Shown in pieces: positions 7,601 to 64,000 of a stretch of DNA of 64,000 nt. Made by a program: the position numbers and the translations under genes. Within the stretch, counting starts at the first letter, position 1; every line of letters starts with the position of its first letter. This DNA comes from Mya arenaria (Eukaryota > Mollusca > Bivalvia > Myida > Myidae), in assembly GCF_026914265.1 (NCBI RefSeq), contig NC_069123.1, forward strand, positions 48,616,949 to 48,680,948, written 5' to 3'. Below the pieces are notes generated by a model, which was given only the letters and a program-made list of their open reading frames with translations, ran no database searches and had not been told where the DNA came from.

Positions 7601-10600
7601 CACACTCTGTTTCTAGGTCATGGTTACCTGTGCTTGAATAGTCATTGGGCTCCCAATAGGTCACACTTGCAATTCGCAGGATTCTGTAGCATTGAAATTA
7701 TCTCTGTTTCTAGACGATAACTAAATACTTAAATACGCATTAGACAGTATAATAATAGGAACATTCTTTTCAATTCATGAGTATTCACATGTGTAATTTT
7801 CTTTAGAATCAGGTCAGCCTAAACAGCCTTTAGACCGGGCATTTCTAGCCGAGGAGTTGAATGTGGAAGAGGACAGAAATAGCACTCAAGTGTAAGTCAC
7901 TGTTCAGTCACAAGTTATATTTGGTGTTAATAACATGTGTGAATGAAACTATACAAAACAAATGCAAAGCATGACTCATATATTCTTTTTATCACAAGGG
8001 TTAGGTGAAGTATCTGTTTATACCATATTGTCAAGCTTACTATGCAATAAGTAGTTGATGTATGTTTAAAAACTGTGATAATTAATTATCCACACATTAC
8101 GGTAAGTTGAACTCTACATCCTGGTAACCATTCTTGTATGAGAAATGAGGCATAATTAAACCAAAGAAACACTATTAAATATAACACTTATATATTGTTA
8201 TGCCTATATTATACATCTTATAAGCAGGTCTACTTTTTGAAGTCATCTGCAATTTCGTGTAAACCTTTAACTTTTGCCATGACTCACTATACTATTAAAA
8301 CTTGGTTCACATGTTTCAGAGATAATATATATATGCAGAGTATAGCAATGCATTAAAACGTGACTTTATTTAAGGATTGAATCTAATTAACTTGTTTTCA
8401 TGAAATTTTTTCCTTATGTTTGCATTTTTATGCTGCCCGAAGGGATTTGCTGCTTTGTCTGTCTGTGAATCTGTCCAGGCCAACCTAGGGGTGTTTTTGA
8501 ATTTCAATTGCAGCTTTTTAATTTTATTAGCTCCACTGGCCGAAGGCCATGGAGCTTATGTCGTCACAGATTGTCCGTCGTGAGTGCGTGCGTGCGTGCG
8601 TGCGTGCGTAAACTTTTACTTTAAACGACATCTCCTCTGAAACTGATAAGCGGATTTTGACAAAACTTCACAGGAATGTTCCTTTGGTGGTCCTTTACCA
8701 AAATTGCTCAAATGGTTCCGGTCCATTGCACAATATGGCCGCCAGAGCTAAAAATAGCAAAATCTTTAAACGACATCTCCTCTGAAACGGTTCGGCAGAT
8801 TTTGATGAAACTTGACAGTAATGTTCCTTGGGTGGTCCTTTATTAAAATTGCTCAAATGGTTCTGGTCCATTGCACAATATGGCCGCCACAGCTAAAAAT
8901 AGCAAAATCTTTAAACGACATCTCCTCTGAAACGGATAGGCAGATTTTGACAAAACTTCACAGGAATGTTCCTTTGGTGGTCCTTTACCAAAATTGCTCA
9001 AATGGTTCCGGTCCATTGCACAATATGGCCGCCAGAGCTAAAAATAGCAAAATCTTTAAACGACATCTCCTCTGAAACGGTTCGGCAGATTTTGATGAAA
9101 CTTGACAGTAATGTTCCTTGGGTGGTCCTTTATTAAAATTGCTCAAATGGTTCTGGTCCATTGCACAATATGGCCGCCACAGCTAAAAATAGCAAAATCT
9201 TTAAACGACATATCCTCTGAAACGGATAGGCAGATTTTGACAAAACTTCACAGGAATGTTACTTTGGTGGTCCTTTACCAAAATTGCTCAAATGGTTCCG
9301 GTCCATTGCACAATATGGCCGCCAGAGCTAAAAATAGCAAAATCTTTAAACGACATCTCCTCTGAAACGGTTCGGCAGATTTTGATGAAACTTGACAGTA
9401 ATGTTCCTTGGGTGGTCCTTTATTAAAATTGCGCAAATGGTTCTGGTCCATTGCACAATATGGCCGCCACAGCTAAAAATAGCAAAATCTTTAAACGACA
9501 TCTCCTCTGAAACGGATAGGCAGATTTTGACAAAACTTCACAGGAATGTTCCTTTGGTGGTCCTTTACCAAAATTGCTCAAATGGTTCCGGTCCATTGCA
9601 CAATATGGCCGCCAGAGCTAAAAATAGCAAAATCTTTAAACGACATCTCCTCTGAAACGGTTCGGCAGATTTTGATGAAACTTGACAGTAATGTTCCTTG
9701 GGTGGTCCTTTATTAAAATTGCTCAAATGGTTCTGGTCCATTGCACAATATGGCCGCCACAGCTAAAAATAGCAAAATCTTTAAACGACATTTCCTCTGA
9801 AACGGATAGGCAGATTTTGACAAAACTTCACAGGAATGTTACTTTGGTGGTCCTTTACCAAAATTGCTCAAATGGTTCCGGTCCATTGCACAATATGGCC
9901 GCCAGAGCTAAAAATAGCAAAATCTTTAAACGACATCTCCTCTGAAACGGTTCGGCAGATTTTGATGAAACTTGACAGTAATGTTCCTTGGGTGGTCCTT
10001 TATTAAAATTGCGCAAATGGTTCTGGTCCATTGCACAATATGGCCGCCACAGCTAAAAATAGCAAAATCTTTAAACGACATCTCCTCTGAAACGGATAGG
10101 CAGATTTTGACAAAACTTCACAGGAATGTTCCTTTGGTGGTCCTTTACCAAAATTGCTCAAATGGTTCCGGTCCATTGCACAATATGGCCGCCAGAGCTA
10201 AAAATAGCAAAATCTTTAAACGACATCTCCTCTGAAATGGTTCGGCAGATTTTGATGAAACTTGACAGTAATGTTCCTTGGGTGGTCCTTTATTAAAATT
10301 GCTCAAATGGTTCTGGTCCATTGCACAATATGGCCGCCACAGCTAAAAATAGCAAAATCTTTAAACGACATCTCCTCTGAAACGGATAGGCAGATTTTGA
10401 TGAAACTTGACAGAATTGTTCCTTGGGTGGTCCTTAACCAAAATTGCTCAAATGGTTCCGGTCCGCTGCACAACATGGCTGCCAGGGCAAAAAAATAGAA
10501 AAACCTTTAAAGAACATCTTCTCAGAAACCGATGATCAGATTTTGATGAAACTTAACAGAAATGTTCCTTGGATGGTCCTTTATCAAATTTGCTTCAATG

Positions 10601-13600
10601 GTTTCGGTCCACTGCACAAGATGGCCCCCAGAGGTAAAAATAGAAAAACCTTTAAACGACTTCTCCTCAGAAACCGATGATCGTATTGCAATGAAACTTG
10701 ACAGAAATGTTACTTGGGTAGTCCTTAACCAAAATAGCCCAAACAGTTCTGGTCTGCTGCACAACATGGGCACCAAAGCTAAGAATAGAAAAAAACGTTA
10801 AACTACATCTTCTCAGAAACCGATTATCAGATTTTGATGAAACTTTACATAAATGTTCATCGGGATGCCCTTTAACCAAAATTGCCCAAATGGTTCCGGT
10901 CCGCTGCACAACATGGCTGCGAGAGTTAAAAATAGAAAAACCTTTAAGGACTTCTCGTCCGCAGTCTTCACGAAAAACATTTTAACCTACTAGCCAGTTG
11001 GACTAGCATAATGGCATATTTTACTAGTCCGAATGACAATCTAGTAGTCCGACTATTTTGCCACATTATAAAACTGTATGCTTGAGGTAAATACCTATTT
11101 CAATTGAGCAGCTTGCAGTTTGAGTAAACATTTCTTTATTATGATGCTCATGCAGTGATAGGGAGTGACATCCTTCTGTTGGGAATAGTGCTCCTTGTTT
11201 TTCAGAACCTATGGGTACTATGTAAAAACAAAAGGCATCTTGCTTGAATAGACTGTAATAATATCAACATGGTTAGAAAAGAAATGCCATGCTTTAATAG
11301 CTTTGATTACATTTTACTACTGAATTTCCTCCCTTTAATAGAAAAAAAATTAATGTCTTAATTTTTCACGTATAGCATCTTTAAATAATTTTTAAACAAT
11401 AATAATTTATGAGTAAACATATAAGCATAAAGTTCTCACAAAAAGATCAATTTAAAAACCTTACATTTATACATAGGAAAGTATATATAGACTGAACATT
11501 AATTTTCGTTTAAGTGACATTCTGAAAGTTTATGAAACAGCTATTTTTAGTAACTTAAATGGCCGAAAAGTGTAAGTGAAACACCAAGTCGATTCTATCT
11601 CGTCAGTTCTTGTTCAGGTTAGATATTTGCTTCATAATCTATTCAGATTAAATGTTAACCGATGATCAGATTTTGATGAAACTTGACAGAAATGTTCCTT
11701 GGGTGGTCATTAACCAAAATTTGTTAAATGGTTCCAGTCCACTGCACACCATGGCTGCCAGAGCTAAAAAATAAAAAAAACTTTATACGACTTGTCGTCG
11801 AAACCGATGACCTTTTTTCGATAAAACTTGACAGAAATGTTTGTTTGGTGCTCCTTTACTCAAATTGCCCAAATCATTTCGGTCCACTGCACAACATGGC
11901 AGCCAGAGCTATTAAAGTAAAAAATTTTTTTAAATAACTTCTCCTCAAAAATTGATGATTGTATTTCTATGAAACTTGACGAAAATGTTCTTTAGGTGGT
12001 CTTTGCTTGAACCTTTTGGCCACTGGAGCACAGGCACTGATGTGCCTCTTGTTTCTAAACATATACCTTAACATTTATTTTTCAAACCTGCAATTTCTTT
12101 CCGTGTTTTTCCAACTTGAATATACATGTGTAATAATGCTTCTTCCATTTACTTTCTACCAAAACACATTTTATTACAATTTCTGTCTTTTTATATAAAA
12201 TTGGCATATGGGAAGGATCTATTGCTTCCAGTGACATTCTTGTTTTGTTTGTTTTTAAATTAAAAAAAAAATGAATAATTTCCGGTGAAAATTACAGAAA
12301 AAAATAATTACATACATAGTGTACCATTGATTGGCCAAATGGTGTAACACTTGTCAGAGTGCAGCAATTAAAAAACCATGTCAAAAACATAGAACAGTTC
12401 ATGCAAAATGAATGTCAGTTTTTTTAATGGAAAGTACTGTGGCTATGTAAATATTACTGCTTAAATCAAGCACCTAATTTGACTGAAAAATATGAACAGA
12501 TGAGGACCGGTATTGACTCTATTGAGCTCTTGTTTATAAATAAAATGTAGCACCGCATGTTTGATGATAATGGGAAGTGAGTTTATTAATAAAAGCATGC
12601 CTTGACTGCTAATAAATTAATATTTTCTCTTACCCTACACTCTATGTAGGATTAAAAACGCAATGTATTGAATTTCTACTTCCGCTTCAAAATGCGTGAG
12701 GCAGTGAATGATTTTACTCATTGATTTTTAGTTTAAGCTAATATCTTAATCCGCGTAAATTTTTCAGGCCACTGCTGTACAGTTTGATTGGTCAGTTTAT
12801 GAATAAAAACCGTGGGAAATCCACAAAATCTGCAATGCAGAACCGAGGACAGTCTTCCCGATTCCTCGATGATCTTGAGCATGAGATGGGTAAGTGTTAC
12901 TCGAAGCAAGTTTGTATAGCGCTTCGTCACAATCACTTCTGAGATGACTGATTCTGGTAAATAAACTCTTATTTTGTAAGTTGTGTTAAAGATTGGAATT
13001 CAGTTTGTCAAGTGAAAATGTGAATACAAAGGGAAGGAACTTTGATCTAAAACAGAAAGCTTTTCTATTTTGGTGCCAAAGTTATAAATTACAAAATGTA
13101 GTATGTAAGAAGCACATGTTATTAGTTTAAACATATTTATTTTACAACGATTGTGAAACAAGTTATTACAACATTATATTATTCACTCTCGTTGGCCTGA
13201 TTTTACGCAAGAGTGTGGTCTTGTGTTGCGGGGGAACCCAGAGAAAACCCACTTGTCCAGCTTGGTGACCACGAACCAAACTCATGTGCCCGAGCTGGGA
13301 ATCGAACCCGGGTCGCCTAGGTGAGAAGCGAGTGCGCTAACCACTGCGCTAACCGGACAACCACATGATATTGATGTCATATTACTGTCAAAAGTCAGCC
13401 TACAACTTGGCTTTGTAAGTAGACATAATAAGACTTGTAAGAATGACAAATTTAGTATTGTCATTTTAGTGAATACATGTTGTTTATTACAGATTAAACA
13501 CCCGTTTATTACAAAATCTCTCTTCATTTGGGTTTTAAAACAAGTCTTAAAACACATAAATACAAGTACACTCAGTGTCTGCAAACTGTACCAACTTAAT

Positions 13601-16982: not shown

Positions 16983-17027
<45 letters not shown>

Positions 17028-20000
17028 TCTAGGCCAGAGAAATGTCTGGCGGGGAATATCAATGATCGATTGTACTTGGTTACCTCCAAATCCTGTCCGT
17101 ACTCGAGGATCTCGCGATCGCCATTGGAGAGGAGACGGCACCAGAAGGGCGGGGAGGGCGGCTCCAGTGTGTACTGGTCGTACGCGCACAGTTCGTACAG
17201 TGTGTACACGTCCGCTGGAATGTACAAGAGATCAGTGCAATGGGCGTACGCGTTTGTACACTGGGGCTATAATGTACAAGGAATATATTTCAGCAAAGAT
17301 CATCAGTGTGTAAAATGTAGGGAGTTAGGTGATTAGTATTCTGATTTCGAGACACAAATGAAGATACACCGGGCTTAGAAGTAATTAAAATGCATGGCGA
17401 CGTTCATGGCGTATGATACAGAAACAGTTGGTCTCAATCAATTAAGGGATATTATCAAGCATGTCAAGATGATTTATTCTGACATTGTTCATATTTACAA
17501 TTTACCAAATGAATGTTCGTTTACAATTCAAATTGCCTTGATGGTCCTCGCGAATGATCGAGTAATCTTCGTGCAGTGTGGCTTATTTCATATGTTTAAT
17601 ATGTAAGGCATCTGACAAGATTCATCCACAATTCAAGATTCTATGGTTTGTTTTAACCGGTGCCCCTAATTAATGCTACCAGCATGCATATATCGACCAA
17701 TTAAGTGCTGTGCCATCTTTCTTTTATATAAGAAGATTTGAAATAGTGAAATTCTATGGGAAATGTAGTAGTAGCAATAAACCAGCGGCACCAAACCGAA
17801 TCCTATGGACAAGGTTGTCTGGTACCCAGCATACTCTGCACAACAAGAAATGGTAAGGGCAGGTAACCCAGGCTAGGGACAAGGTTGTCTGGTACCCAGC
17901 ATACTCTGCACAACAAGAAATGGTAAGGGCAGGTAACCCAGGCTAGGGACAAGGATGTCTGGTACCCAGCATACTCTGCACAACAAGAAATGGTAAGGGC
18001 AGGTAACCCAGGTTAGGGACAAGGTTGTCTGGTACCCAACACACTCTGCACAACAAGAAATGGTAAGGGCAGGTAACCCAGGCTAGGAAGAAGGTTCTCT
18101 GATACCATCCTCTGCACAACAATAAATGGTAAGTGCAGGTAACCCAGGCTAGGGACAAGGCTGTCTGGTACCCAACATACTCTGCACAACAAGAAATGGT
18201 AAGTGCAGGTAACCCAGGCTAGGGACAAGGCTGTCTGGTACCCAACATACTCTGCACAACAAGAAATGGTAAGTGCAGGTAACCCAGGCTAGGGACAAGG
18301 CTGTCTGGTACCCAACATACTCTGCACAACAAGAAATGGTAAGTGCAGGTAACCCAGGCTAGGGACAAGGCTGTCTGGTACCCAACATACTCTGCACAAC
18401 AAGAAATGGTAAGGGCAGGTAACCCAGGTTAGGGACAAGGCTGTCTGGTACCCAACATACTCTGCACAACAAGAAATGGTAAGTGCAGGTAACCCAGGCT
18501 AGGGACAAGGCTGTCTGGTACCCAACATACTCTACTCAACAAGAAATGGTAAGGGCAGGTAACCCAGGCTTGTGACAAGGAACTTTTAGTGTAGGAGTAG
18601 GACAAACATTCCCTAGAGATAAAGTCCATTAGCGGAAAGTACATAACCATATTATGATACATAATAACAAACACACTGTATACAATTTACGTTACATTCA
18701 ATACTGAAGAACGTTACATCATATGTATTGATAATAAAGTAAATAAACACACGTGTTTGATTGTTATGTCATTATACATGGCCACTAAACGCCAGTTCCA
18801 CCACTAAACGGTGGTGCAAAGAAAATGAGCTTTCGCAACATCCGTGGTTCAGCTATGCCCTGTGTTTACTTCTACAAATATGAATGTGATTACTATTTTA
18901 TTTGATAATTTTTTTAAACTGACATAAATCGAAAATCGGAGAATGTTGAACCATGTAAGAACATTTTTACTGCAGGCTGGCTACGATTTAGTTTCAATAT
19001 TGTGCGAATTATGGTGTCAGGAGCTTTTCTCCCAAGCCGGATCTGTGCATATTTTGAGATCTGCTTGCATTTTCACAGTGGCTTGATGACAAAGGCTCAT
19101 TAAAGTCACAATAAATAATTTCAACTAGCCAAATTTATATTTTATACATACTTGAACATGTATATTATCATTATAATACATTGCCATAAACATAAAATGA
19201 GATTTGACAAAATTCAAATATACCCTATACTGTAATATGAAACTTTAGTTTAAACTAGATCAGATTCGTGTTAACACTTATCTATAAATGCACTTTTGGC
19301 TCCTAGCAGTAACTGGTTATCTAGTTATGGTTTTCAAACCTGTTTACTTATTGAAGATCATTAATGTTTGCATATTTTTGTTTTGTTACCTATCATTATG
19401 ATCGGGAAAGTCTGTAAATGAAATGGATATTACTTCTGTAAAATTGTACTTAAAATTTACCTACAACATTGACCACTTCAAGGCACATGTCATGGTCATT
19501 TCAAGGTCAGGGTTTGAAAACTACCCCTTTTTCAATATCCTTTTCTTCTTCTTCTTTTTTTTTTTTTTGGACTTTATTTCAGACTCATATGCTACCAAAA
19601 TGGAATGCTAAAATTTCAAATACAATAAATTATGAAAGCTATCACACTCCTATTTCACCTAATACGTTGGAAGTTATCAACTTTAAACGCGTTCTTGATT
19701 CTTACTTTTAAAGTATAAAAGCAAACGTGAATACGTGCAGTTTAAATGTGTTCTGACAGGATGAATTTTTTATTTCACTTAAAATACTGCAACATAATAT
19801 TGCTTAGTGAAAAAGAGTTGTATTAAATACAGAATAATATTAGCTTCAGCTTTATGTCTAAAGTTCTTTTCAACACAAACTATTTTTAAAAATAAAAAAG
19901 TCAGTGGTATCAACCATATAATAATAATAATTACTACATTATCTTGAATCGTTTACAGCCTACTTTCAGGCAGTTAATGATCCTAATGATTTGTTCAGCC

Positions 20001-23000
20001 AGACGAAGACATATTATACTTTAATAATACTATTTTACAAAATGAATTAAAGATAATGTTTTCTGAACAAGGTTTGCCATTCACCGAGGAAGACGTTCTT
20101 AAAGGTATTTCAAATTCGAATTTAAGCAAAAGTGCTGGTCCAGATTGGATACTTAATGAATTTTTGATATATGGTAAACATAGACTATCGTCTTTTCTTT
20201 TAAGGCTATTTAATAAACTATTTATCACCGGGTATTTTCCGGAAAAAGTGGAATGAGGGTTATATAGTCCCAATACATAAAAAGGGAAATTTAAACGAAG
20301 TTTGAAATTTGAGAAATCACATTATTAAGTGTTGTGGGAAAACTATTCACAAATATTATTAATAGTCGGCTTTCAACTTGGGCCGAATATTACCATGTAT
20401 ATATCGAGGCACAAGCTGGATTCAGAGCTGAAATGAGTACCGTTGATAACATTTTTGTATTTCAAAATTTAATTAACCGTGTTCTTAATAAAAACAAGCT
20501 GTTGTTTTGTGTTTTTGTTGATTTTACAAAAGCGTTTGATTATATAGTACGAGACAATATGTGGTATAAACTGCATATATTAGGACTACGGGGCAATCTC
20601 TTTTCAGTTATAATTTCAGTTATAAAGTCTATGTATAATCATTTGTATTCAAGAGTTAAACACCAAAACGAGTTAGATGCAGTGTTTGAAAGTCATTTAG
20701 GTGTACGTCAAGGCGAATGCCTATCGCCATTATTATTTTCATTGTATATTTACGATCTAGAGGAAGTATTATATCTCAAAGGGACCAAAGGGGTCGACAC
20801 AGGATTATTAAAGTTTCTGCTCTTATATACAGACGATATTGTAATGTTTGCTTATTCAGCAGCAGAACTGCAAGCGAATATTAATATATTAGAGGAATAT
20901 TTTAACAAATGGAAACTTAAGGTTAATAAAAGCAAAACAAAGATACTGGTTTTTAGGAAAGAGTGTAGATTACCTATAAATCTTCAGTTTTTCTATCAGG
21001 GATCACCATTGGAGGTTGTAAACAAATTTACACATAAAGCAATTTTTAAATTAAGAAAATATTTTAACAATTTTACTAATATAACACCTGAACATAAATT
21101 GGAACTTTTTGACAAACTTATTAGAACTATCCTATTATATGGTTCAGAAGTTTGGGGATTTTAAAACGAATGCCAATTGTGAGGATACACACCCACTTCA
21201 TAAAATATGTACTTTCGGTTAAAACAACAACACCAATTGACTTTGTATATGCAGAAACGGGCAGATTAGATATACTGTCGCAATGCATTATCGATATTAT
21301 TAAATACTGGCTTAATTTAAGTATGCCGAATGATAAATATGCAAGAGCCATCTATAATGTAATGATTAATGATGTTGTAAAACTTTCAAATAAAACAAAC
21401 TGGGCAGTACATGTTAATTTTTTGAGTAATAGGGGGTTATATCACGTGTGACTTGCACAAGGAGTTGGTGATATTCAAGTTTTGTGTCATTTTTGAAGCA
21501 AAGAATACGAGATGTTTATGTTCGAAATTTAAACAGCAGATTGTCTCCTCAAGAGCTTTATTTTATGGAAACATTTCTAATTTTGAATTAAAACCCTATC
21601 TTAAGTGTGTTAATGTACAGAAATTCAGAATTGCTTTTTAAAAGCCAGTTAAGATTATCGTCGCATCGGTTAAATGTAGAAGTTGGTAGGTGGATTAATA
21701 CAATTTTGGAACAAAGACTTTGCCAAAGACATTGTAATGTCTTAGAAGACGTATTTCATTTTTAGTTGAATGCGGCTTGAATACAAATATTAGATCTAAA
21801 TATATTCCTAGATATTATCGTACTAATCCAAATGTGTTTAAAACCATAGACTTGCTGAATACAGATCATACTGATTTGTTAAAGAATCTTTCTATTTTCG
21901 TGTTTAAAGCATTTGCTCAGAAAAAGAATTTCATTACTTTACATGATACATGATAATTATATGTTTTAATACCAGCCGTAATATAGTTGTAATAAGTTCG
22001 TAATAATTCTTTTGATTTACATTTGCTACTATTTCTGTTACTGTAAAATATATCAACTACTTAAAAACAAAACATATAGAAAACGCCAAGCAAGTGTTAA
22101 ATAATGGAAATGATCATGGACTATCATAGTCTACTTCATTGATGTATGTATGAATTGCGGAACAGATGTTGTTATCGGGGATTGAACGCAGTTGGGCTGG
22201 TAAAGTGGAGTCCGAAGGACTCAACGCGTACTTTAACCAGCCTAATTGCGTTCATATCGCCGAAAATGACATAACTCACGGAATTCATTACTTATATTTA
22301 CACCCAGAGCTCATTTTTTGATTCCTGAATTGTTAAAAAAAACATTTAAGAAAACCTAAAATGTAACGCATTTCAAAAATAAAGGTCCAAATCATTTGAA
22401 TGTCAAAATGCAAATATGACCAATATCGACAGCGCTATAACTTATATAATTATTCTTTTTATGTGAAAAAGTCCTAACATAAATAAACTCACAAATTAGT
22501 GTTAATTATATGTCATCTGTTTTTGCATATATTAAAGTCAAGTCAACCATACAATGTCCCTTCTTGGGCACATTCAGTGGTAAACAAGCTACATATAAAA
22601 TATTTTTCTGAGTTTCATGTCAGCCTATTCAGCCGAAAGTTTCACCTTTTAAGACTTGTGTTGGTTGTTTTTTTCAACATATTATGTTAATTTATTTTCA
22701 AGAACCAAACAACCCAATGAACATTTCTCCCAGTTATTAGAAAACGTGTTTCTATAAGTCCACGTCTATGAATTCCTCAAACCCAATAAGGTCGCGATTT
22801 CTCTTGAAGACACAATATTTCTCCAGCAGCCCTCTGTATCCTAATTGTGGTTACAGTAAAGCCGACTCATTATCAAACAAGCCCAAGACTGTTTTCAAGT
22901 TCACGGTGTGTTCAAACAAACAATAAAGGGACTCTATGAAGCTCTATAAAGTGCCCAATTGGTAAAAGGTTTGTAATACTTGAGACCATTAAGTGTAAAG

Positions 23001-35734: not shown

Positions 35735-36065
35735 TGATGATAACGGGACAGTACGATACTATGTTAACGAAAACACGATATCACGATATAACGATGGTGA
35801 AAACGCGACATAACGATGGTGAAAACACGACATCACGATGGTGAAAACGCGACATTACGATGGCGAAAACACGACATTACGATGGTGAAAACGCGATATT
35901 AAGATGGTGAAAACACAATGACATATTGCAGTATCATCATCGTGCTGTCGTATTATCGCGTTTTCGTTATCGTACTGTAGCGTTTTCATCATCATACTGT
36001 CGCGTTTTCGTTATCGTAGTTTCGTGATTTCGCGTTTTCATCATCGTTCTATGGAGTCTCGCGTT
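35735..36065. repeat. 22-bp minisatellite with an inverted, diverged second half
   Basis: Left half repeats acgatggtgaaaacgcgaca at 22-bp spacing (for example 35791, 35813). From about 35940 the complementary wording appears: cgcgttttcgttatcgtact, gcgttttcatcatcatactg. The two halves could fold on each other. No coding potential. Confidence 0.8.
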
Positions 36066-43565: not shown

Positions 43566-44393
43566 TTTAACTCTAAGGTTGACCTTGAACTCTACGGTCG
43601 AGTCGTGCATGGCACACATTTTCTTTATATACCAAACTGAAGTGCCTATTTATTTTAAAATCCCTCGACATGACCAAGTTACAGCCTGGACAGGGTAAAA
43701 ATATTCTATGAACATATATGCAGCATTCAATAAGAATTTAACTCCATGTGTGACCTTGAACTTTGAGGTAAGGTTGTTCGTATTCCATGTGACTTATCAT
43801 TTTTATTTTAAAATTTCTGTGCATGACAAAGTTACAGCAGAGAAACAACCAACTATACTGTACATGCTTTCAGGCAGCATTCCATTATGAAGGTGCAATT
43901 TAGATATGCCCTTCTGAATAATACACATCTCTCTGTACAATGTTGGCTCTCTTGCTATTTGGACATTTTCAGTTTGGAGCATGTCATCATGTTTCATATC
44001 GAGAAAAACACCAATAATACTAAACTCTACAAGAAGTTGTCTCCTTAAAATTTGGAATTTCAAGGGCCAAAATACAGGCATACAGGGGGATCTGGGTGGT
44101 TTTGGATTGGAGCCCAGCCTTCTTGATATCGGACTACTGGTACTAAACAAGATTGATTCAGATACAATCAAAGCTGTTTTATTGGGTTGATGGGCGCACG
44201 GACACCACCTTTGGCCAGTCGATAGTACTAAAGATAGTAACAGTACTAGAATATAGCACTTGTTTCTTATTTTCCTTTCTCTACATCTGACACTGTTTTA
44301 TATGAGAATACCAATGCTAAACATTTTCCATGAATATATCTATTTTATACTGGAGCAAAAAAACAAAAGTTAAACCAAATTCCAGTTTTTCTC

Positions 44394-47400: not shown

Positions 47401-49749
47401 TCGATAACATTGAAATATATCGCCAGTCTTTGTAACATATTTCGGTAGCCAGTACAGGATGTTGCTATTTTTAGTAACGAAAGGTATTTCCCCGCTATTC
47501 CAATTGCAGACAATACATTCAAAATTCCGATCAAAAGGTTTATTAAAAAAAGAAAAAGAAAAAAAAATCCCTTCCTACCGACCCTTAGGATTTTGAGGCC
47601 TGTAACCAGAAACAAGAACTTTTTTTATGGCCTCTAGGATTGGAAAGTTCTTGGCAAAACATGCATGGATCACTGTAAAATTAGATTAGAATGATGCCTG
47701 CGAAGATTTGTGTAAACAGACTAAGGCGAGTAAAATAGCTCTCCTTATTCTTCGAATAGTCGAGCTAAAAAGTGCATTTTACAGACCATAAGTGAGTCCC
47801 TTAAAATAGTTAAATGAAATAGTTCAACGGCAGCAGCTTTTTATCCTTCTTCATAAAGAATGATAAGCCTCCAAAGTGACATAACAATTCAAACAGTTTT
47901 TTGTACAACTCACTGCATATTAAAATAACCACTTCATACCCTTGAAAGTCTGTGTTTTGGTTCAAATTTCTTGGCAAAGTCGAGACTGTCGTAGATGAGG
48001 GCAAAGCCCGTAGTCTTGCCACCCCCAAACTGTGTGTGAAATCCGAAGCAGAAGATTACATCAGGTGTGGTCTTGTACATGCGAGCCAACTTCTCGCGAA
48101 CTTCAGTCTTCGCTAGAGTGGCCTTGCCGGGATGCAGCACATCTACAATCTGCAAAATGTCCCAAATCATTACTTTAGATGTTAATTTGCCAATTGCATG
48201 ACAGCAGTGTTTCAACTTAGGCTTAGATATGACCTGACATAAATCACTCATAGTCTCATTTACCATTATCTTATTAAGCAAATGTCTCGATCAGGTGTCA
48301 ATCTAAATTTATGCAACTATATTTTTTGCATTCAAAAATGTTTTCTGGTTTTTCAAAAGTTCTAAATATCTCCATGTCCTTCGTCATGGTGTAGTCACAC
48401 ACATTGCATTATCAAAACAAAGCTAAACATGCAATATTGAAACTAAATAGAACTTTTACAAAGTACATCAGTAATTTAATTTTAAAGCTCACCATCTGCC
48501 TCCGGCAGAGCAGACGATTGGTCATGAACTTGCGAGTTCGCAGAGTGGCCGTTCCTTCACTCTGAAAAAAAGAATTGTTTACTGATTTTGTATCATTTTA
48601 GATAAATTTGTTTAAAGATGTTAGGTTTGAAAATCAATGTCAGATTACAATGCAGGTAATGTTAAATTATTTTCTTTTACTTTCCTCAGTTAAAAATGAA
48701 TGACAAAGCAATAATGTAGTGGCAATTTTAAGATTTGTCCAAATTTTTACTCAATTCATGACCCCCTCCCCCATACTAAATCGGTCTGATTCACTTATTT
48801 TGCTATTAATAGGACTCGCCTTCACTGATATTAATAAACAGGTTTAATAAAAAGAAAGGCTTTCTGAATGTTGATTGTGCAAGGAAACCAAGTGTATGCT
48901 TGAACTGTTACTCATGATGTTAGCTACAATAATGAGCGATCAGGGATACTTTTTTTATTATTTTGACATTTATGTATCCCTGTAACGCTACAACTCTCTA
49001 CCATTTTACAACGGGCGAAATGATATACTGTAATAATATGCATTGATGTTGAATAATAATGATATAATTGATCGAAATGTACCTGACAGTGATCTTAACT
49101 GGGTTGGATTTGTCGTCAAGAGTCGTTATTTTCACATAAATATACTCTGGGTCACGAAATAGTTGTAGCGTTACAGGGATACACATGAAATGTCAAAATA
49201 ATAAAAAAGTATCCCTGATCGCTCATTATTGTAGCTAGGTTAGAATCCTCACCAGGATCTGATGACAATGCAGTGTTCAGCTATTTGACAACTTAATACC
49301 TTTTATTTCAAACCCTCAAAGTTCAATTGACATTAGTCATTTAGTCAAAAAAACACATTGATAGGCGATATATACTTGAAAGAACCGTTCAAAACATAAA
49401 AATGTATTATTGGCGTTGAAGACTCCGCAAATAACAAACGGAACAAAATGCGTACTCTGTTAATATTCTGTTTCCATTCTTCACATTTACAAGGTAACGA
49501 CTACGCGTTCTTATTGTTAAATAAACCTAAAAAAGTAACTTTCCACAAAGTACTTTTGACTCGACAATCGTTTATAAACACTGGATTCGGATGCATATTT
49601 TTCATATAAGCTCAAACCCATTTAGTATGATTGCAAGAATATGTGATAGATTGATATGCGTAGACATTTTATCCAATTATATAAGCATCGATGGGACTTT
49701 CAAACATAATTAAATTGACGGATATTTCCAAGAGGTATTTGTTTACCAT
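44444..49749 (-). CDS. RPS24: RPS24 (40S ribosomal protein eS24), complete
   Basis: Five coding exons, transcribed leftwards: 49747-49749 (ATG only), 48493-48561, 47940-48149, 45315-45428, 44444-44449; 402 nt, 133 aa, the same length as the human long form. The protein reads [20 protein letters not shown], then [20 protein letters not shown], then [20 protein letters not shown] and [20 protein letters not shown], ending [15 protein letters not shown]. All introns are phase 0. A first exon ending right after ATG and a tiny last exon (AAA TAA) mirror the known animal RPS24 gene structure. eS24 is part of the small ribosomal subunit and is needed for 18S rRNA maturation. A pyrimidine tract lies just upstream of the ATG. 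Introns carry two MITEs. Confidence 0.97.
45315..45428 (-). CDS. RPS24: RPS24 coding exon 4
   Basis: Acceptor gtctgtatttcag, donor AAAAAG before gtgaga; 38 codons [20 protein letters not shown] to IGAGKK. Confidence 0.96.
45495..45750. mobile_element. MITE with GGGCCC-type terminal repeats
   Basis: Left GGGCCCAATTTCTCGAAACT and right (reverse complement) GGCCCCCTTTTCTCGATACT form the terminal repeat; length about 256 bp. Flanking duplication not clear. Confidence 0.65.
47700..47768 (-). repeat. Composite-repeat head fragment
   Basis: Minus strand reads AGCTCGACTATTCGAAGAAT (47766-47747) then aaggagagctattttactcg, matching the head of the element at 62908-63640 (AGCTCGACTATTCGAAGAAT then a gctatactactcg stretch). 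Truncated soon after. Confidence 0.7.
47940..48149 (-). CDS. RPS24: RPS24 coding exon 3
   Basis: Acceptor cattttgcag, donor AGG before gtatga; 70 codons from [10 protein letters not shown] to EPKHRLSR, the family core. Confidence 0.97.
48493..48561 (-). CDS. RPS24: RPS24 coding exon 2
   Basis: Acceptor ctttttttcag, donor ATG before gtgagc; 23 codons [20 protein letters not shown] plus RQM. Confidence 0.96.
48923..49235. mobile_element. MITE with ~78-bp TIRs and TA duplication
   Basis: Left end GCTACAATAATGAGCGATCA and right end its exact complement; inverted arms of about 78 bp (through gggatac...attttgaca and atccctgtaacgctacaac). TA flanks both ends (48921-48922, 49236-49237), pointing to a Tc1/mariner-type non-autonomous element. 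It sits in RPS24 intron 1. Confidence 0.85.
49747..49749 (-). CDS. RPS24: RPS24 coding exon 1 (start codon only)
   Basis: ATG immediately followed by the gtaaac donor. The 5' UTR to its right is short and starts in a pyrimidine tract. Confidence 0.85.
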
Positions 49750-49784: not shown

Positions 49785-52393
49785 AAATTGTGAAAAACCT
49801 ACACCGTAATATAAACTATAGTTTTTTGACAAGTGCTGTTATCAGTAGTTCCGTCAAGTAATTTAGACATTTTATTTCAAAAGTTTTCTCTCAAACATTC
49901 ATGTCGATATATAAAATGGATAATTTAAATATAATTTTCAATTCATATTCGTTTTAAATATGTAAAATAGTACGGTAGTGGTTTCATATGATTAACTGTT
50001 AAAAAGTCCTTAAGTTAAAACGTCCCCAGGAACTTGTCAAAACCGCCCCAAGAACGTCCCCACTTTTGAGTGAACATTGCATTTAGTACTCATTTTAATT
50101 AACAAATGAATATGCAATGGATTAATATTTGAATAATACCGACTGTAACAGCGTGAAGCATTTTGTTTTGTACACACATTTAGCACATAAACGAGAGGCA
50201 ATTATTTTCTCATATTTAATAAAAAGCATGCATAGAAATCCTGAATGTTAAGTTTATTTTATTTATTTTTGCAATAACGAACTAAGTAAAATACCTTATA
50301 CATCCGTCGTTGTTGGTTCGGACAGCTTGTCCAAAGACGCCCCCCCCCCCCGGCTCCCCGCTTCCCGTTCCAATACGGGGAGTTGAACCACTGACGTTCC
50401 AGTTACCGGCATTATATTTTATTTGAAGCAGTTTAAATCATACACTTACTGTTTTATCCCGACTCTTTATTTCGTCTTAGTGGGCTAAGTGCTAAAATTA
50501 TGTTCAGAAATTTCTGGTATGCATTCAGCCAGATATTATAACGTTTACCCTAACACAGTTCAAGGCATTGCGTGAACTGGAAATATTGTATTGTAGACAA
50601 AGTATAGTAAGCACACTGTGAATATCAGATTCAACCATATCAGTTTTGCATAGTTTATATTTTCATATGTATGCTTTATATAATAGAATTATCCTTACCA
50701 TAATAAAAATTCTAGAAACGTGGTGTATGGGAACGACTCAAAATCATCTGTATATAACATATAAAATACTCCCAATTATCCTGAAATGCACGTGCGGTGT
50801 TTTCATTACTCACAGCTCTCGCATTGGATCTCATGCTGACCACGAAGCATGAAGTCGAAAGATCAGCCAAGCGTAAAGATCGAGAGGTCCCCGCTCGAGA
50901 ATGACAACAGTAAACGTCAAACCGTGGAAACTATCGTTATCGTCGTGGTCCACGGCAAATGACGATGAAGCCACGTCCAATCCCTACGGTTCTGATATCG
51001 GCCTCTTCAACGAGCCCCCGTGATACCTCAAGATCCAAATGACCACACAGAAATAGGCCAAGCTAGGAGAGTCACTGTCAAAGTATTGTAACGGTCCGCT
51101 GTAGGTTGCGGATGTGCGTTCGTAGTGTAACGGTCCGCTGCAGGCGGCGGATGTGCGTTCATAATAGCATTCCGTTATAAACGGAAGTACGTTCATAGTA
51201 CGTATGTTAATTTGGTTGGTAAAGCCCGGGCTCTGTGTGAATAGAGAATTTAGTGTATTTAAAGACCACTGGACCCCTTCAGGGTCGAGCATGCTTTTCT
51301 CTGTTGGTGTTTCTTAGACGTCGCACGTTACAGTGTCTACTGATCGGGAACGATACACATGAGCGTGAAAACTGTTTGTTTGCCGTATAAGCGACCTAGA
51401 GATAAAAAATTCAACGCCTTAAATAATTATTACCCAAAAACATTACTCACTAAAATTTTGTTTCTCAAAACTAAATAAGACTTTTGAAACGTTTTAATTA
51501 TTGGCCTTTCCCACCCTCTTTTGCACTGTAGCCAGGCCCTAAAAATAATGTTAACACATTTAATACAATTATGACAAATTTGATAATGATGTACGTTATT
51601 GCTATATAGTGTGTTCAATCCAACAATATATAAATATTGTACATATTACACCATGTTTTTAACTACTGCATTCATAACTTAATTGATAGCATTATGTTAT
51701 TGTATCAATACTTAATATACTGTACTGATGAGAAATCATGGGTTATACATTTCTTTGCACAATATTTTGATATATATGTCTGAAAACGTTTTAATCATAT
51801 GCTTTACTACCAAATATTTGTATCGGCCTGTTCTATAAATGTTGTTTAAATTGTATGGTTAGATAGATTGAAGAATTTACGAATATTTGTCATCATATTG
51901 TTGCAACCCACAGTTTGCCCAGAGGACGTTTCAACCTTAGGACGTTATGCCTCATATGCCGGACCAACAACAACAACAACACCAACAAAAATAAAACAAA
52001 AAATGAATTAGACGCCTAGCAGTGGAAAGTTTACTTCTAAGTAAAGGTTAATATTTTTGTATCTTAATATGATGCATTAAATTTAAACAACTTATACACA
52101 CACATATATATAATAAGAAGGTTCAGAAGTGCAACTTTCTCTTTTGTTTTCGTTCCTAGATGATAAGCTTTCGGAATAGTGACATTTCGGACAACATTAC
52201 TATAAGTAATTTAGTAAAAGTTATTTATCGTTGGCTGGTTCAATAAAACATAAGGTAACATAAGCTACATGTAACCATATAGACAACAAGATGAATGGAG
52301 TCAGGTCAAAGAATCTTAGTACCAAAATCGGCACAGTTCAGAAATGCACAGTTTGAAATGATAATAATAATTATAATTATAGGGTCCCATTCC
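49785..52393. other. Intergenic region right of RPS24
   Basis: Mostly AT-rich with nothing recognised. A tandem duplication of about 47 bp at roughly 51085-51170 (taacggtccgctg...gcggatgtgcgttc twice) lies in a GC-richer patch (50850-51350) without an identifiable gene. Confidence 0.5.
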
Positions 52394-55220: not shown

Positions 55221-58200
55221 GTAAATATTTCTCCATCCATTTTGAAGAGAGACATAATTAAATTATTAGGCCTCGACCAGTTTCTTTAGCTTTCCATCCG
55301 GAAGAGCTGGATCTTGGGATATCTCAAAAAGTAAGCAAGCAAAATTTATGATGCTTAGTATTTGGTTAGAGGGCAGTAAGGAGATATTGCATGCCATGTT
55401 TTTCTTTGGTCAAACAAAAAATGTGGTTGCTTTGGCAACAAAAAAAGAAAATGTGGTTGCAGTATCAACAAACAGAAGAACATGTTTAATATTAGTAGTT
55501 TCAGATTACTTTCATTAAGCATTAAATGGATGGTGTGATGAAGAGGCTTAAACTTGAAGGGTACATAATTATCGTATTGCTAGGAATTCTTGAAGGGTAC
55601 ATAATTATCGTATTGCTAGGAATTCTTGAAGGGTACATAATTATCGTATTGCTAGGAATTCTTGAAGGGTACATAATTATCGTATTGCTAGGAATTCTTG
55701 AAGGGTACATAATTATCGTATAGCTAGGAATTCTTGAAGGGTACATAATTATCGTATTGCTAGGAATTCTCAGTGATGTGTAGCTATTTGTCCTGCTTGA
55801 AACTTTGGATTATATTTAGTGTCAATGCAGCTTGAGAGGGTAGCCATACTCCTGTGATATTTTTGAAAAAACCCTTAGGATTGAATGACCACAAAAATGT
55901 TGTTCTATTTATGTCATAAATTCTAAATTCTAAATTTTTCTAGCACTTATACCTTAAGTGTCTCTTCTTGGCATGCACAATTTACAATGCTATATTCATG
56001 GTAAGTGTCAAATCAGAATAAAATTCCTTATTGCCTTTCAGATATACCAACGAAAACAAACACTGCAAGAACCACTAGAAGGACAATGGCTTCATCAGAG
56101 GGAAAGTGAGTACATGGATTCATTTATAAAAATAGCCAATGTATAGTGCAATAGAGATTTTAATTTGACTGTCACACAATTTTCAGAACAATCATTTTTT
56201 ATAGAGATTTATATATATATTTAATGTTAATAAAAGGATGAATAAATGTCGAAAACAATGCTTCTTATGAAGGATATCGAGTTTAAGTTGAAAGAAATGA
56301 GCATAAAACACTATTTCTACCTAACGAGACTATAGTTGACCACAGTAAATCTTTTAGCATTCAACAGTCATTTAATATTTTTACACTTTCTGCTATTTAA
56401 TACACAGTTACAATCTTGTTATCAGTTATTAATATTTTCCATAAATGCAATATTTAGTCAGTAGTTAAAGGTTTATCAGTCAAAATTGATGTTTGTTATA
56501 CATGTGTATGTATTGATTTTGAACAAGAGTGCCACTTTAAAATAAAACAATAGCACATCCAAATATGTGTTTGAGAAATTAAGGCAGTTATTTAGTACTA
56601 GTAAATAAGAGTCAACATCTTCCTTCTTTCATATCTTTAATGATAAGGATCACTGATACCTGAAATGTATATACACAGTACATTTATTTAGTAAATGAAT
56701 AGTTAATATTAAGATTGAATCATAACTCTTTATCCCCAACAAATATAGGGGGCATATAGATTTGCCCTTGTCCGTCCATCCATAAGTATTATGAAACTTG
56801 TGTCCCTCGAAACTTTTAAACTATTTCACCTACAATTAAGAAACTTTGGTGGAATGTTGTTTAGATGATGCAGTTTCACACCAGGGGTTTCTTTCTACAC
56901 CAATTAAAACCCGAGTTATGGCTGTTGAAATAGTAAAAATTGGCATTTCTTGACTTGTGTCACTCAAAACTCAAAACTATATTATCAAGAGTCATTAAAC
57001 TTAGGTGAATGTGAATAGGGTGAGTAAAATGTGTACGAGGGGTCTTGTTTCTCACAACACTTTTTAAAACTAGAGGTATAGCCTAGGGGATTGTTGTTAG
57101 TTGTGAAAGCAAGCAATACTGTGAGAATTTGGGGTTGTTCATTCAAAAGTCTAATTTCGATGACTGTAATTTTGATGGACATTTATGCAGAATGGGCAAA
57201 CTTATCGCCTATGGACAGATTTCTAGTTTGTTACCAGTATTTATTTCATTAGTCCACTGGAAGCTTCTTTGTCCATGTCTCATTCATTTCTGATCAATAA
57301 CTTTTGAACAACTTGGTGTAGTGATTTTTAACCTTTAATGCATTTTCATCCATGGCCAGAAGATGAGTTTTATTGATTTTGAGGTCAAATTGATGTTTGC
57401 TATGAAAATTATGGTAGAGCTTTCAAACTTGGTATGCACATTAGTCATGGTCGGTGGAAGAAACTTGTGACCTTTACTTGAAAATGATGTTTGCTCCCTG
57501 AAGGAGACACATAAGATTAAAGAAATTTTAGTCTAAAATCCTACTCAAACTTAAATTATGTTTAATGGATATTTTAGTTTTTCATATTTTTTCTGGTGAA
57601 GATATTTAACAGTTTAGTATTTGATATATTTTCAGGTCTGCCACTGCTTCTGCTGGTTTGTATTCTAGTTTTTATTGTCAAATGAAAATATGACTTAAGT
57701 AGATGCAAATGTCTTTTTTTCAAACCATTGAAGACTTTACAAAAATAAGTTGCACTTTAGATTAGGCTGGCAAGGTTTATATTTCTGTAAATTTGTGTCT
57801 GGTTTATTGTAGTATTATTATACCCCCACAAACGAAGTTTGAGGGGGTATATAGGAGTGAGTTTGTCAGTCGGTCGGTCGGTCTGTCGGTCGGTCCGTCA
57901 GTCTGTCGGTTTTCATGGTTTCCAGACGATAACTCATGAAAGGCTAGACAGATTTGAAAAATTTTTGGTACACAGGTGTAACATCAGAAGGTACAGGTCA
58001 AGTTCGATATTGGGGCTGGTGGGGCCAAGGTCAAGGTCACTGTTACTAAAAATAGAAAAACGGCTTCCGGACGATAACTCATGAAAGGCTTGATAGATTT
58101 GAAAAAATTTTGGTACACAGGTGTAACATCAGAAGATACAGGTCAAGTTCGATATTGGGGCTGGTGGGGCCAAGGTCAAGGTCACTGTTACTAAAAATAG

Positions 58201-61200
58201 AAAAACGGTTTCCGGACGATAACTCATGAAAGGCTTGACAGATTTGAAAAAACTTTGGTACACAGGTGTAACATCAGAAGATACAGGTCAAGTTCGATAT
58301 TGGGGCTGGTGGGGCCAAGGTCAAGGTCACTGTAACTAAAAATAGAAAAATGGTTTCCGGACAATAACTCATGAAAGGCTTGACAGATTTGAACAATTTT
58401 GGGTACACAGGTGTAACATCAGAAGATACAGGTCAAGTTCGATATTGGGGCTGGTGGGGCCAAGGTCAAGGTCACTGTTACTAAAAATAGAAAAACGGTT
58501 TCCGGACGATAACTCATGAAAGGCTTGAGAGATTTGAACAATTTTTGGTACACAGGTGTAACATCAGAAGATACAGGTCAAGTTCGATATTGGGGCTGGT
58601 GGGGCCAAGGTCAAGGTCACTGTAACTAAAAATAGAAATACGGTTTCTGGACGATAACTCATGAAAGGCTAAACGGATTTGAACAATTTTTGGTACACAG
58701 GTGTAACATCAGAAGATACAGATCAAGTTCGATATTGGGGCTGGTGGGGTCAAGGTCACTGTTACTAAAAATAGAAAAATGGTTTCCGGACGATAACTCA
58801 TGAAAGGCTTGACAGATTTGAACATTTTTCGGTACAAAGGTGTACATTTCAGAAGATACAGGTCAAGTTCGATATTGGGGCTGTTGGGGCCAAGGTCAAG
58901 GTCCCTGTTACTAAAAATAGAAAAATGGTTTCTGCTTCATAACTTTAATTGGGCATGAGATATTGTGATGAAACTTGCTGTATAGGCAGCCTCTGTGAAG
59001 ACAATGCTTGTGATTGAAAATGGGACCAGTGGAGTAAAGGTTTTTGTGCACTGTTACAAAAAATAGAAAAACGGTTTCCGGACAAACAATACATGCATGA
59101 TAAAAGAAGATGCAGTGTGCAGTAACCTTGGAGTTATGGCCTCTTTTCAAAGGAATGGTTTGCCATTCCTGTGTCCAGGCGGCATTTGGGGGTATTCGTC
59201 CCTCCTGTGACAGCTCTAGTTGTTGTTGCAGTGCGAATGCACATTTTTGTACCAAGTAAGCATCAAAAATGATATTTTACATATTGCTAGATGGAAGTAT
59301 TTAGTTCACTGGACAAAAAAAATAATAATGTATTAAGAGCTTACCGGAATAATGACTACAGTGGTACCCCAACCAATTTTATTGCACAATAAGTTGACAT
59401 TGTTTGAACATGTTACAGGAACCTCGTCCGGAAACGTGCCCGTGTTACTGGAATCTGATACCTCAGACCAGTAAGTTGACCTATTGATGAGCAAGGCAGT
59501 GTAACATAAATCTGATTTGTTGATACATTACGGGTATCCAGAACTTCAAAAGTTACTAGTAAAACTCTATGATACAATGAATCAATAAAATTTGATTTTT
59601 GTTCACAAAATCAAATTAAAATAAAAAAAATCCTGTATGTATAGGATCTTAAAAGAGTTGCCATTTAAAAACAAAAAAAGAGGTTTATTTGTCATTTAAT
59701 AAACAATAATTAAGCATACATGTTTACAAAATGCTCACTCAAACAAAATGCAACATGTTGGTAACATTGCAATCTTCATGTCTTAACATATAATTTGCGA
59801 ACAAAATTTTCTGAAAATTGTTAATCTGAAATATCATAAATCCAAACTTTTTATCTGGGTCCTGACAACTTCGGATAAACAGTGTTTAAATGTATGTTGA
59901 TACAGTTCGGAAAACAGTTGTGTGATGCAGATTGTTCAATACGTTATGCAGTTTTTCAGTGTTGGATATGGAAAAGGACATTAATAGGCATGTAATAAAA
60001 GAAAATATAGGTAATGGTTGAATCAAGGAACAGGCAAAGTCATGTGGTAAACAAGTGTTCATGAACATAATAAAATAATCCAAGTTGCATTTTAAATTTC
60101 TGTTTTCACTCGAACCTGTAATGTGCTAGTCCCTAAGGCAAATTTCAGAAAAGAATGAATGAATCCTTCTTGTTTAATGTGAAATTAGCAATTTCATGTG
60201 AGTCCAGCACTAGGGATAATTTAAGCATTTATTTGTGTACATGAAAAAAGGTGGTTCCAAACTCTTCTTGTAAATACTTCTTTACTTTGCCTAGTAATGC
60301 TGAATAATGTAACTAATCTGCCGACATGTTTTCAGGGAGGCTGCAGTCGGTGAGGAGGAGGAGGACCAGGCAGTTGAGCTCAAGAAGGACCCTCGCATAC
60401 CCCAGAAGAAACCCAGCAAGATGTCCTCTAACAGCCAATCCTGGAAGGTGACTACCATTCTTCTTCCCTAACACAGATGATATAATATTCTATGAATAAC
60501 TGTTGCTAAACCAATAGTATAACTTTTCTATTTTGTGGTACATGAATTGCAACAAGCAGAAAAGGTCTTGTGTTATTGAAGGTGTAAGCATTAAATATGA
60601 CATAATAGTTTATTGTGGTCATGGAGTGGTGAGGCAGCCCCCATTGTGTGACATGTTTATGGAATGGTCCCAGGTTATTTTCATTTCTTTTTAAATTATG
60701 TTAACATAATTTTTATGATGCAAAAGAAGGGACATTAACTATAGAACCGATTTTTGCACATTGCTGTTCATTATGTGCTGAGTCTGAATTAAAAGTTTGA
60801 CAATGACATTCCCAATGTTAAACATCATTTTCTTTTGAATATTGGTTAATGGTCACATGTTATCCTTGGTCACTTGAATAATGTTTTAAGTGAGGTTGAT
60901 GTATGCTGTTTGTATTGTCAGGGTATTCCCTTGAAGACTCTATGTACGCTGATGGAAAACAAAGCTCCTAAAGGGCCCCTTAAACCTACAGAGAGGCATA
61001 AAGTGCTGTTCAAAACTCCAGTGAGTATTCCCTCTTTGGTCTTAACAATAGTAGATCAGTCGTGTACAGTTCTTGGAGATGATGAAGGGCTCATGATTAC
61101 ATATAATCTGATTATCTCAAGCCTGAGTAACTAAAGACTCCAAGCTTGTTCCTTAATTTAATTGTGCATTTCTATTTTTTAAAGCTTGATTGTGAAAAAT

Positions 61201-62227: not shown

Positions 62228-64000
62228 GTAGGCCACTTTTTAGATTCATAATTATCATGAAACCCAGCAAGCAAAATAAGAAATAAATAAAAAGTCCCCA
62301 TACTGTTTATTTTATTTTTTTTATAAAATTCTCCTAATTTAATGATCAGTCATGCATCAGTATCAAATACCAACTACACTTGTCACAAAAAGCCATCAAC
62401 TGTTGTTGTTGTTGAGTTTATAAAGGTTTGCCCGTGCCCTATATTGGGTACATTATGGCTTGACCCCGTTTTGTGGGATATTCACCAAACGAATTGCTTG
62501 GCAGCATTAAAAGCTTGCAACTGACCAATCAGCTTCGACAACATCATTGCTGTTCACCCCCTTATGTGTTAATAATGTGGTCCATTGGACATGTGGCTTC
62601 AATATAGCATGAGAGATACGGTAAAAAGGGCCTCTTAAATTTTGAAATATCAGTGGTCCATGGCCAGTTTACGCAACCCTTCCCTTCCCATCATTTTTTC
62701 TTTAACTATGAAAATTGATAATAATATTAAAAATAAAAATATAATGATTTTGCCCCCAATTTTATTTGTAAACAAATTTTCCGCAAGTTGACTTGGTGGT
62801 ACCAAAAGAAAATATTGTGAAAAGAAGAAATGCTGATCCTTGGTTACACTACACTAAACATCATGCGGAAAAAAAAATTGAATTGATAAATGCTTATAAA
62901 GTTTTTAGCTCGACTATTCGAAGAATAGGTGGGCTATACTACTCGCCCCAGCGTCGGCGTCGGCATCCGGTTAGTTTTAGGGCAAGTTGGGATTTTCACT
63001 TATAAGTTCAATACCCTACATTCAATTGACTTAATACTTCACACAGTTGTTCAGGGCCATCACATGATGAGGTTAGATAACTCCATATTATTCTTTACAC
63101 AGATTATGGCCCCTGATTGACTATGGAACTTAGGGTAAAGTTTTAGGGCAAGTTGGAATATTTATTAATAACTTCTATATCCTTTGTTCAATTGACTTAA
63201 TACTTCACACAATTGTTCAGGACCATCACACAATGAGGTTACATAACTCCATATTATCCTAAATACAAGTTATGGCCCCTGATTGACTTAGGTTAAAGTT
63301 TTAGGGCAGGTTAAAGTTTTAGGGCAAGTTGGGATTTTCACTTAAAACTCCAATACCATTCATTCAATTGACTAAATACTTCACACAGATGTTCAGAGCC
63401 ATCACATAATGAGGTTAGATAACTCCATATTATCTATTATACAAATTATGGCACCTGATTGACTATGGAACTTAGGTTAAAGTTTTAGGGCAGGTTGGGA
63501 TATTGTTTAATAACTTCTATACCCTTCATTCAATTGACTTAATACTTCACACCATTGTTCAGGACCATCACCCAATGAGGTTACATAACTCCAAATCCTT
63601 AATACAAGTCATGGCCCCTGATTGACTTAGGCCACACCAAATTAATGTTTAGTTCCTCGGATTTATGCCAAAAAAAAATTGGAGCGAGCGAGCGAAAAAA
63701 TAAAATAAAATAAAAGTTTGTCAGTTTTCATAAAAACCGAAGCGAGCGAAGAGCATAAAATATATTTTTCCTTATATTCAATATAAATAAGAAAGATTGT
63801 TCAAAATAATTGCGTTTAAACCCATTTTAATGCCATCTTGAACTGAACCTCTAATGGACATTGGGAAAATGTCGGAATACATACTATTTATTCATCCGTG
63901 TTTAGTACAAACATTATATGGATAAATCTAATTTCTTATATAATTAAAACGTACTTTAATATGACGATCATTCATAATAATAAATAACCCTGCTTTTAGG
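62228..64000 (+). other. PARG intron 7 (open-ended)
   Basis: No exon matching the next PARG block was seen. Besides the composite repeat, 63650-64000 is AT-rich with short GAGC and AAAT microsatellites. Confidence 0.6.
62908..63640. mobile_element. Composite repeat element with hairpin head and ~170-bp array
   Basis: Head AGCTCGACTATTCGAAGAAT (62908-62927) with perfect centre CTATTCGAAGAATAG at 62914-62928, a cggcgtcggc stretch, then four units; ttcaattgac recurs at 63021, 63187, 63363 and 63529 (166-176-bp spacing). The right end is unclear because of the cgagcgagcg/aaaat microsatellites at 63680-63745. A head fragment of the same family is at 47700-47768. Confidence 0.75.

Follow-up and report, generated by a model that had tools for sequence, protein, structure and literature searches.

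Repeat elements in the window

The window analysed here is a stretch of 64,000 nucleotides from the bivalve Mya arenaria (assembly GCF_026914265.1, contig NC_069123.1, positions 48,616,949 to 48,680,948, forward strand). It carries three repeat elements, A, B and C, which, as far as their letters tell, are laid out as non-autonomous Helentrons (HINE/DINE-1): a T-run, a 5′ hairpin, a GC-rich microsatellite and a tandem array. A and B are almost certainly HINE-like. The hairpin of each has a GAA loop closed by a C-G pair, and two further palindromes with this tip, in repeat D and motif E, make up the five that a first-pass annotation had pointed out, all of which lie where it placed them (Table 1). 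That annotation held that unrelated families share one hairpin loop, used by one transposition machinery; as an observation this is partly confirmed, and as an interpretation partly supported. The description we prefer is that the apex is mostly C-R(A/T)A-G (R, purine) on the element's sense strand, rather than a constant GAA, and that stems keep pairing across families while their letters change.

Table 1. Coordinates of the elements and palindromes within the window. Fold energies come from a model that assigns one value to every triloop and is thus blind to loop letters.
Feature	Position	Strand	Basis or remark
Element A 5′ hairpin, one-bulge stem, apex C-GAA-G 8541-8545	8529-8556	+	fold -11.3 kcal/mol
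Element A 5′ subterminal inverted repeat	8530-8541	+	
Element A CGTG (GTGC) microsatellite	8579-8609	+	Tandem Repeats Finder
Element A 145-bp tandem array, ~16 copies	8619-10947	+	Tandem Repeats Finder
Element A 3′ end	12018-12053	+	sequence, end comparison
Element B 5′ hairpin TATACCCCC...GGGGGTATA, apex C-GAA-G 57833-57837	57819-57851	+	fold -12.0 kcal/mol
Element B GTCG microsatellite	57865-57910	+	Tandem Repeats Finder
Element B 145-bp tandem array, 7 copies	57917-58932	+	Tandem Repeats Finder
Element B 3′ end	59187-59221	+	inverted subterminal repeat, imperfect palindrome, CTCTAGTT
Element C 5′ hairpin, apex C-GAA-G 62919-62923, T-run before	62908-62934	+	fold -5.2 kcal/mol
Relative of element C start, apex C-GAA-G	47742-47771	-	89% identical over 47 bp
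Repeat D long palindrome, apex C-GAA-G (15-mer 22208-22222), start of ~600-bp repeat	22140-22290	+	fold -39.9 kcal/mol, alignments
Motif E CCCGAAGGG, weak hairpin	8436-8444	+	TTTTTATG before, TCTGTCTG after

The order of hairpin at the start, then microsatellite, then array is seen in A, B and C, as had been claimed, the microsatellites and arrays being those called by Tandem Repeats Finder. The hairpin of A, which was recovered blind upstream of its microsatellite, is preceded by TT (8527-8528); at the other end of the element an inverted copy of the subterminal inverted repeat (subTIR) at 12018-12029 matches the 5′ copy at 11 of 12 positions and is followed by a palindrome with a 6-bp stem (12032-12047) and by the terminal CTCTTGTT, which ends at 12053. 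The inverted arms of the B hairpin lie at 57819-57833 and 57837-57851, and its inverted 3′ subTIR (59187-59195) matches at nine of nine positions. In C a short CG-rich run leads into a 166-bp array (62973-63627); its 3′ end and inverted subTIR were looked for by end comparison and not found. The hairpin pattern of C has 941 copies in the genome, which comprises 1,216,080,610 bases in 18 contigs. A second copy of C had been placed at 47700-47768, and a minus-strand relative of its start does lie at about 47742-47771, in a context where no microsatellite or array was seen; the CGAAG at 47701 is separate from it.

The window also holds a lone HINE-like 3′ end at 12490-12534 (GAACAGATGAG ... GAGCTCTTGTT), for which no matching 5′ start was found in the window, and short perfect C-AAA-G hairpins without adjoining microsatellite or array at 7540-7556 and, on the minus strand, 29326-29342.

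Complete elements and their shared 3′ end

Two more complete elements, with different stems, were found in a 200-kb sample of the genome, one at 6077-7011 of locus L017 and the other on the minus strand of locus L024. In the four complete elements the stems differ and the 3′ ends are alike, finishing in CTCTTGTT or CTCTAGTT: L017 and L024 have CTCTTGTT in common with A, and L017 and B agree at 85% of positions over 40 bp of their 3′ ends. A 5′ subTIR with its inverted repeat (IR), forming a palindrome a few bases from the 5′ end, is present in A, B, C, L017 and L024. Besides the inverted 3′ copies of A and B, there are copies of 11 bases in L017 and 14 in L024, and in all four elements the distance from the 3′ subTIR to the end is about 24-27 bases. 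The palindrome between them, judged by eye, is clear in A and L017, imperfect in B and short in L024. GTCY-like microsatellites and central tandem repeats are present in all four.

The flank of L017 is a 28-bp repeat that exposes the empty site, with one TT when empty and TT on both sides when filled, and with one mismatch at the junction; TT insertion is thus documented for L017 only. We rejected canonical Helitrons (5′ TC, 3′ CTRR, A/T insertion), as these elements begin after TT and finish in CTCTTGTT or CTCTAGTT. A search with the 3′ end of the L024 element (L024 3866-3935, minus strand) gave 525 candidates, and of the 40 that were scored 30, counting the query itself, show no difference over 69-70 bp. 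Since its 3′ ends are mostly identical, the family appears to be young and perhaps recently active.

The apex loop at element starts

Across the window as a whole the tip is not special. CGAAG occurs 53 times against 47.2 expected, and 21 of 100 shuffles reached 53 or more. GAA accounts for only 2 of the 30 perfect triloop palindromes with stems of at least 6 bp (ATA and GTC, 4 each), so the enrichment over other three-base loops that might have been expected is absent within the window; with stems of at least 5 bp it accounts for 7 of 122, joint first with ATA, TTT and TTA. In a bulge-tolerant hairpin scan CGAAG led the C-G-closed apices with 5 of 79 strand-wise calls; these five are A, B, C, D and the minus-strand relative of C, at 47754.

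Element starts were surveyed from the microsatellite side. Among 18 GC-rich microsatellite sides in 49 sequences (the window and 48 loci), the best upstream hairpin was C-GAA-G in four, namely at three GTCN-type arrays and at the GTGC array of A; the other 14 include the opposite sides of these four. A second, hairpin-blind survey covered 29 sites upstream of GTCY microsatellites, which are the distinct sites among the first 100 of 13,036 overlapping GTCY matches. By eye, the apex was C-AAA-G in eight, C-GAA-G in four (the duplicates L074 and L075 among them), T-GAA in two and C-GTA-G in one, with five hairpins decayed or of another type (among these the duplicates L067 and L073) and no hairpin of the kind at nine sites. 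The claim that the loop is strictly GAA therefore fails, AAA being commoner among C-closed tips (8 vs 4). A C-GTA-G tip is also that of DINE-1 in Drosophila melanogaster. The R-A-A or GTA apex loops, at 15 of the 29 sites, are all on the sense strand, and none is pyrimidine-rich. By program, C-RNA-G makes up 11 of the 16 sense-side triloop hairpins of the blind set; the 200-kb sample, whose hairpins were counted without collapse to families, has 10 among 295, two of the ten being themselves HINE starts (p = 2e-11; 1.8e-4 when the blind hairpins are collapsed to families by hand).

What stands of the statement that stems differ while the loop is constant is that GAA dominates inside some families; other families of the same layout have AAA, and one GTA. 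Tallied by eye, family C, for which 100 copies were listed, has GAA in 92, AAA in 7 and GGA in 1; the 50 sense-orientation rows among 100 listed for family B give GAA 41, AAA 7, CAA 1 and GAG 1; and in a third family GAA is found in 44 of 55 rows, these being the rows, out of 66, in which letters were shown. Families B and C depart from GAA most often by G to A at the CpG, and AAA loops are in part what decay of the CpG in C|GAA should produce. Two families, however, have AAA in every blind copy, again by eye (L050/L060/L061/L069, and L051/L054 with L017 9594). Because AAA is fixed in these families while nearby CpGs are kept, AAA is also a family state. Closed by C-G, AAA can adopt a sheared A-A form.

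The stems were compared in 16 hairpins, D and E included; near-duplicates (L051, L052, L054, L061, L064, L069, L074, L075) and decayed copies (L055, L058, L067, L070, L073) were omitted. Stem pairs 2-5 are paired in 52 of 64 cells, compared with a mean of 19.8 when arms are re-dealt, and none of 5000 re-deals was as high. Each of the four Watson-Crick types occurs at stem pairs 3 and 4, and 14 of the 16 hairpins are closed by C-G. Since the hairpins were chosen from those already found, this test measures pairing across families, not enrichment.

Repeat D and motif E

The palindrome of repeat D, about 150 bp long, stands at the head of a ~600-bp repeat in L001, L003, L004, L006 and L007, with partial alignments in L002 (~490 bp), L005 (130 bp), L008 (61-72 bp) and the window copy (~180-220 bp). 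Its 15-mer has 1,259 copies in the genome; with the loop left free, the stem is found at 1,503 sites. Repeat D was rejected as a HINE: a seven-copy alignment contains no microsatellite, central array or HINE 3′ end. That it is moved by the same machinery as A, B and C, as had been suggested, is not borne out. Of the 765 copies in which both pattern words are preserved, 725 have GAA at the apex, read relative to the body of the repeat, and 40 have TTC; L004 is an inverted copy. The palindrome isomerises, a behaviour familiar from terminal palindromes in other replicons, and a start palindrome with the same apex as the HINEs does flip in this genome. A flip test for element B returned 2 and 0 matches, its downstream word being rare, and no TTC apex was present among the 100 listed copies of family C, with a pattern that is blind to inversion of the whole hairpin.

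Motif E, at -2.1 kcal/mol and missed by the hairpin scan, was ruled out as a real hairpin; from its letters it may possibly be a decayed HINE start.

Helitron-like proteins

The genome holds at least 85 Helitron_like_N matches, several of them near-identical and with long open frames. Six Helitron frames were scanned; all six contain the domain and four of them DUF6570 as well. The Helitron-like proteins of L029-L048 are near-identical copies (L029, L030 and L031, for example, at 99.6-99.8%) and may possibly belong to recently active autonomous elements. The twenty protein loci of 3.4-3.6 kb yielded two C-G-closed hairpins, a C-ATT-G in L034 and a C-AAA-G in L046, whose position, 1571, falls within the protein match. 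When coordinates were compared by eye, no scored 3′ end of the L024 family (40 in all) lay near any of the 85 Helitron_like_N matches listed.

Other repeats

A 1,277-bp unit is repeated in tandem about three times at 39699-43612, which exceeds the period limit of the tandem-repeat finder. At 35782-36032, 22-bp repeats (CGACATTACGATGGTGAAAACG) are followed by a second 22-bp array whose wording is partly inverted. Homogeneous arrays have units of 70 bp (17803-18580), 31 bp (33868-34573) and 36 bp (55553-55770). A search for a tRNA in 50900-51400 found none.

Discussion

The elements are ordinary HINEs in layout, and the 5′ palindrome itself is already known from published descriptions of such elements. 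According to the main text on Cg_HINE of the Pacific oyster (PMC7492417), these elements likewise have a 5′ subTIR with a complementary IR 1-12 bases away, a 3′ subTIR, a 3′ palindrome, a GTCY-type microsatellite and a satellite-like tandem array; the likeness is one of layout, and that text does not describe the identity of the loop. As its text describes it, DINE-1 of Drosophila (PMC2374699) similarly shows a subTIR that starts ATACCC/TATACCC, an adjoining IR, a GTCY microsatellite, central repeats, a 3′ stem-loop and TT insertion, with different subTIR letters past TATACCC; that text documents compensatory stems in the 3′ hairpin and states no rule for the loop of the 5′ hairpin. The text on HINEs and Helentrons of mites and other animals (PMC4067079) reports palindromic subTIRs 2-4 bases from the 5′ end, a 3′ palindrome and a T-rich or TT target, as here, and no loop letters; the 3′ subTIR of the mite HINE lies 38-60 bp from the end, farther than in our elements. 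The identity of the 5′ loop is also unstated in the text of PMC4344730, PMC8268682, PMC12628747 and PMC7992393, and in these papers, as in the three above, it may be given in figures or supplements. The parts of the HINE/Helentron literature consulted report no experiments on Helentron end recognition, a text search for the hairpin letters gave no repeat-element title among the matches listed, and a search for sheared loops gave nothing on point among those listed.

Four elements with differing stems but one layout and one 3′ end are what a single rolling-circle machinery would predict, and we infer that one machinery reads the hairpin. It is fairly probable that the hairpins of A, B and C are HINE/DINE-1 5′ subTIR-IR palindromes recognized by a Helentron Rep through pairing and a purine triloop; taken alone, the role of the loop as a recognition feature is evenly poised. 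We envisage that an HUH-type Rep/helicase of autonomous Helentron-like elements would bind the 5′ end once it has folded as a single strand, relying on pairing and on a compact purine triloop (GAA, AAA or GTA, closed by C-G) over stem letters. It might then nick at the adjacent TT and start rolling-circle transfer, which would stop at the 3′ subTIR, the palindrome and CTCTTGTT. Two other systems offer precedents for reading a loop. In the text on Helraiser (PMC4778049), a change to the loop of the 3′ hairpin, together with the closing pair, lowers activity to the level of hairpin deletion, whereas a stem change leaves about 90%; and one bacterial HUH (REP) transposase depends on a particular G within the triloop of its hairpin, according to the text of PMC8266576.

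It had also been argued that such hairpins are unusually stable. GAA and GTA are indeed GNA loops closed by C-G, like the mini-hairpins described in the text of PMC4686876, and the letters suit A, D, L017 and L024; the class is marked as well by a high melting point and by resistance to nucleases. The families with AAA are not GNA, however, and the argument fits B and C poorly, because an A-T pair stands next to their closing pair and the extra-stable GNA hairpins need at least two G-C pairs (PMC4686876).

Several points weigh against recognition through pairing and loop. The CGAAG shuffles and the triloop counts rule out a GAA enrichment across the window, and the blind set has AAA, which falls outside the GNA class, as its most frequent apex. 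Of the 29 blind sites, which all lie on one contig (C1, 0.47-14.0 Mb) and among which L074 duplicates L075 and L067 duplicates L073, 14 show neither C-RNA-G nor T-GAA clearly at the apex. Hairpins of this type are also missing at the GTGC/TG-type arrays of L004 and L009. Around the Helitron_like_N proteins examined, no autonomous element turned up that carries the hairpin or shares the ends. Finally, in two of the four complete elements, L017 and L024, GAA also stands in the 3′ subTIR, outside any such hairpin. The idea of one machinery for many families accordingly draws support from the shared layout and the common 3′ end, and loses some from a loop that is not strictly GAA, from the weakness of E and from the missing autonomous partner.

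The GAA within the 3′ subTIRs brings recognition of letters into competition with recognition of loop shape. GAA might be kept as letters, the inner end of the subTIR being bound as sequence at both ends and the loop following from the palindromic 5′ copy. The subTIRs of L024 (TTATACGCCCGAAG, 14 bases) and L017 (ATGCCCCCGAA, 11 bases) are identical at both ends and reach GAA, and in element A the 3′ copy reads AAAA where the 5′ copy reads GAA. The subTIR match of B, by contrast, ends after nine bases, short of the apex, and its family nevertheless has a GAA loop in most of the rows listed, so B argues for the apex itself; moreover, the second arm still pairs across families. We regard letters as a possible but doubtful explanation of the whole, while letter recognition does seem to account for part of the GAA conservation. 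It would also be tempting to see the shared loop as mere inheritance from one C-RAA-G HINE, kept through too little time or mutation and without function. A layout and a 3′ end common to all make common descent likely, and some of the loop change is plain decay, with CpG G to A commonest in B and C; the stems, however, have changed their letters without losing their pairing or the closing C-G, and we consider inheritance alone unlikely. It is less likely still that C-GAA-G tips are general to palindromes of this genome, tight turns aiding their formation or survival, with transposition uninvolved. Repeat D, which keeps GAA at most of its stem sites without any HINE layout and inverts its apex in a minority of matched copies, fits such a view, which is opposed by the scarcity of C-RNA-G among triloop hairpins of the 200-kb sample, two of the few being HINE starts.

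The reading we favor remains that of a Rep which recognizes a paired stem and a purine triloop. If it is true, a single machinery could serve families with unrelated stems. We further speculate, with considerable reserve, that Helentron 5′ ends might form a shape code, in which a C-[GA]NA-G purine triloop of fixed polarity is read by Rep on DNA folded as a single strand while stem letters drift freely. Such a code would explain the shared mobilisation of HINE families with unrelated subTIRs, perhaps from molluscs to flies. A preferred apex over pairing stems is a testable Helentron recognition signal, and it can also be used to locate the starts of elements and tell their orientation.

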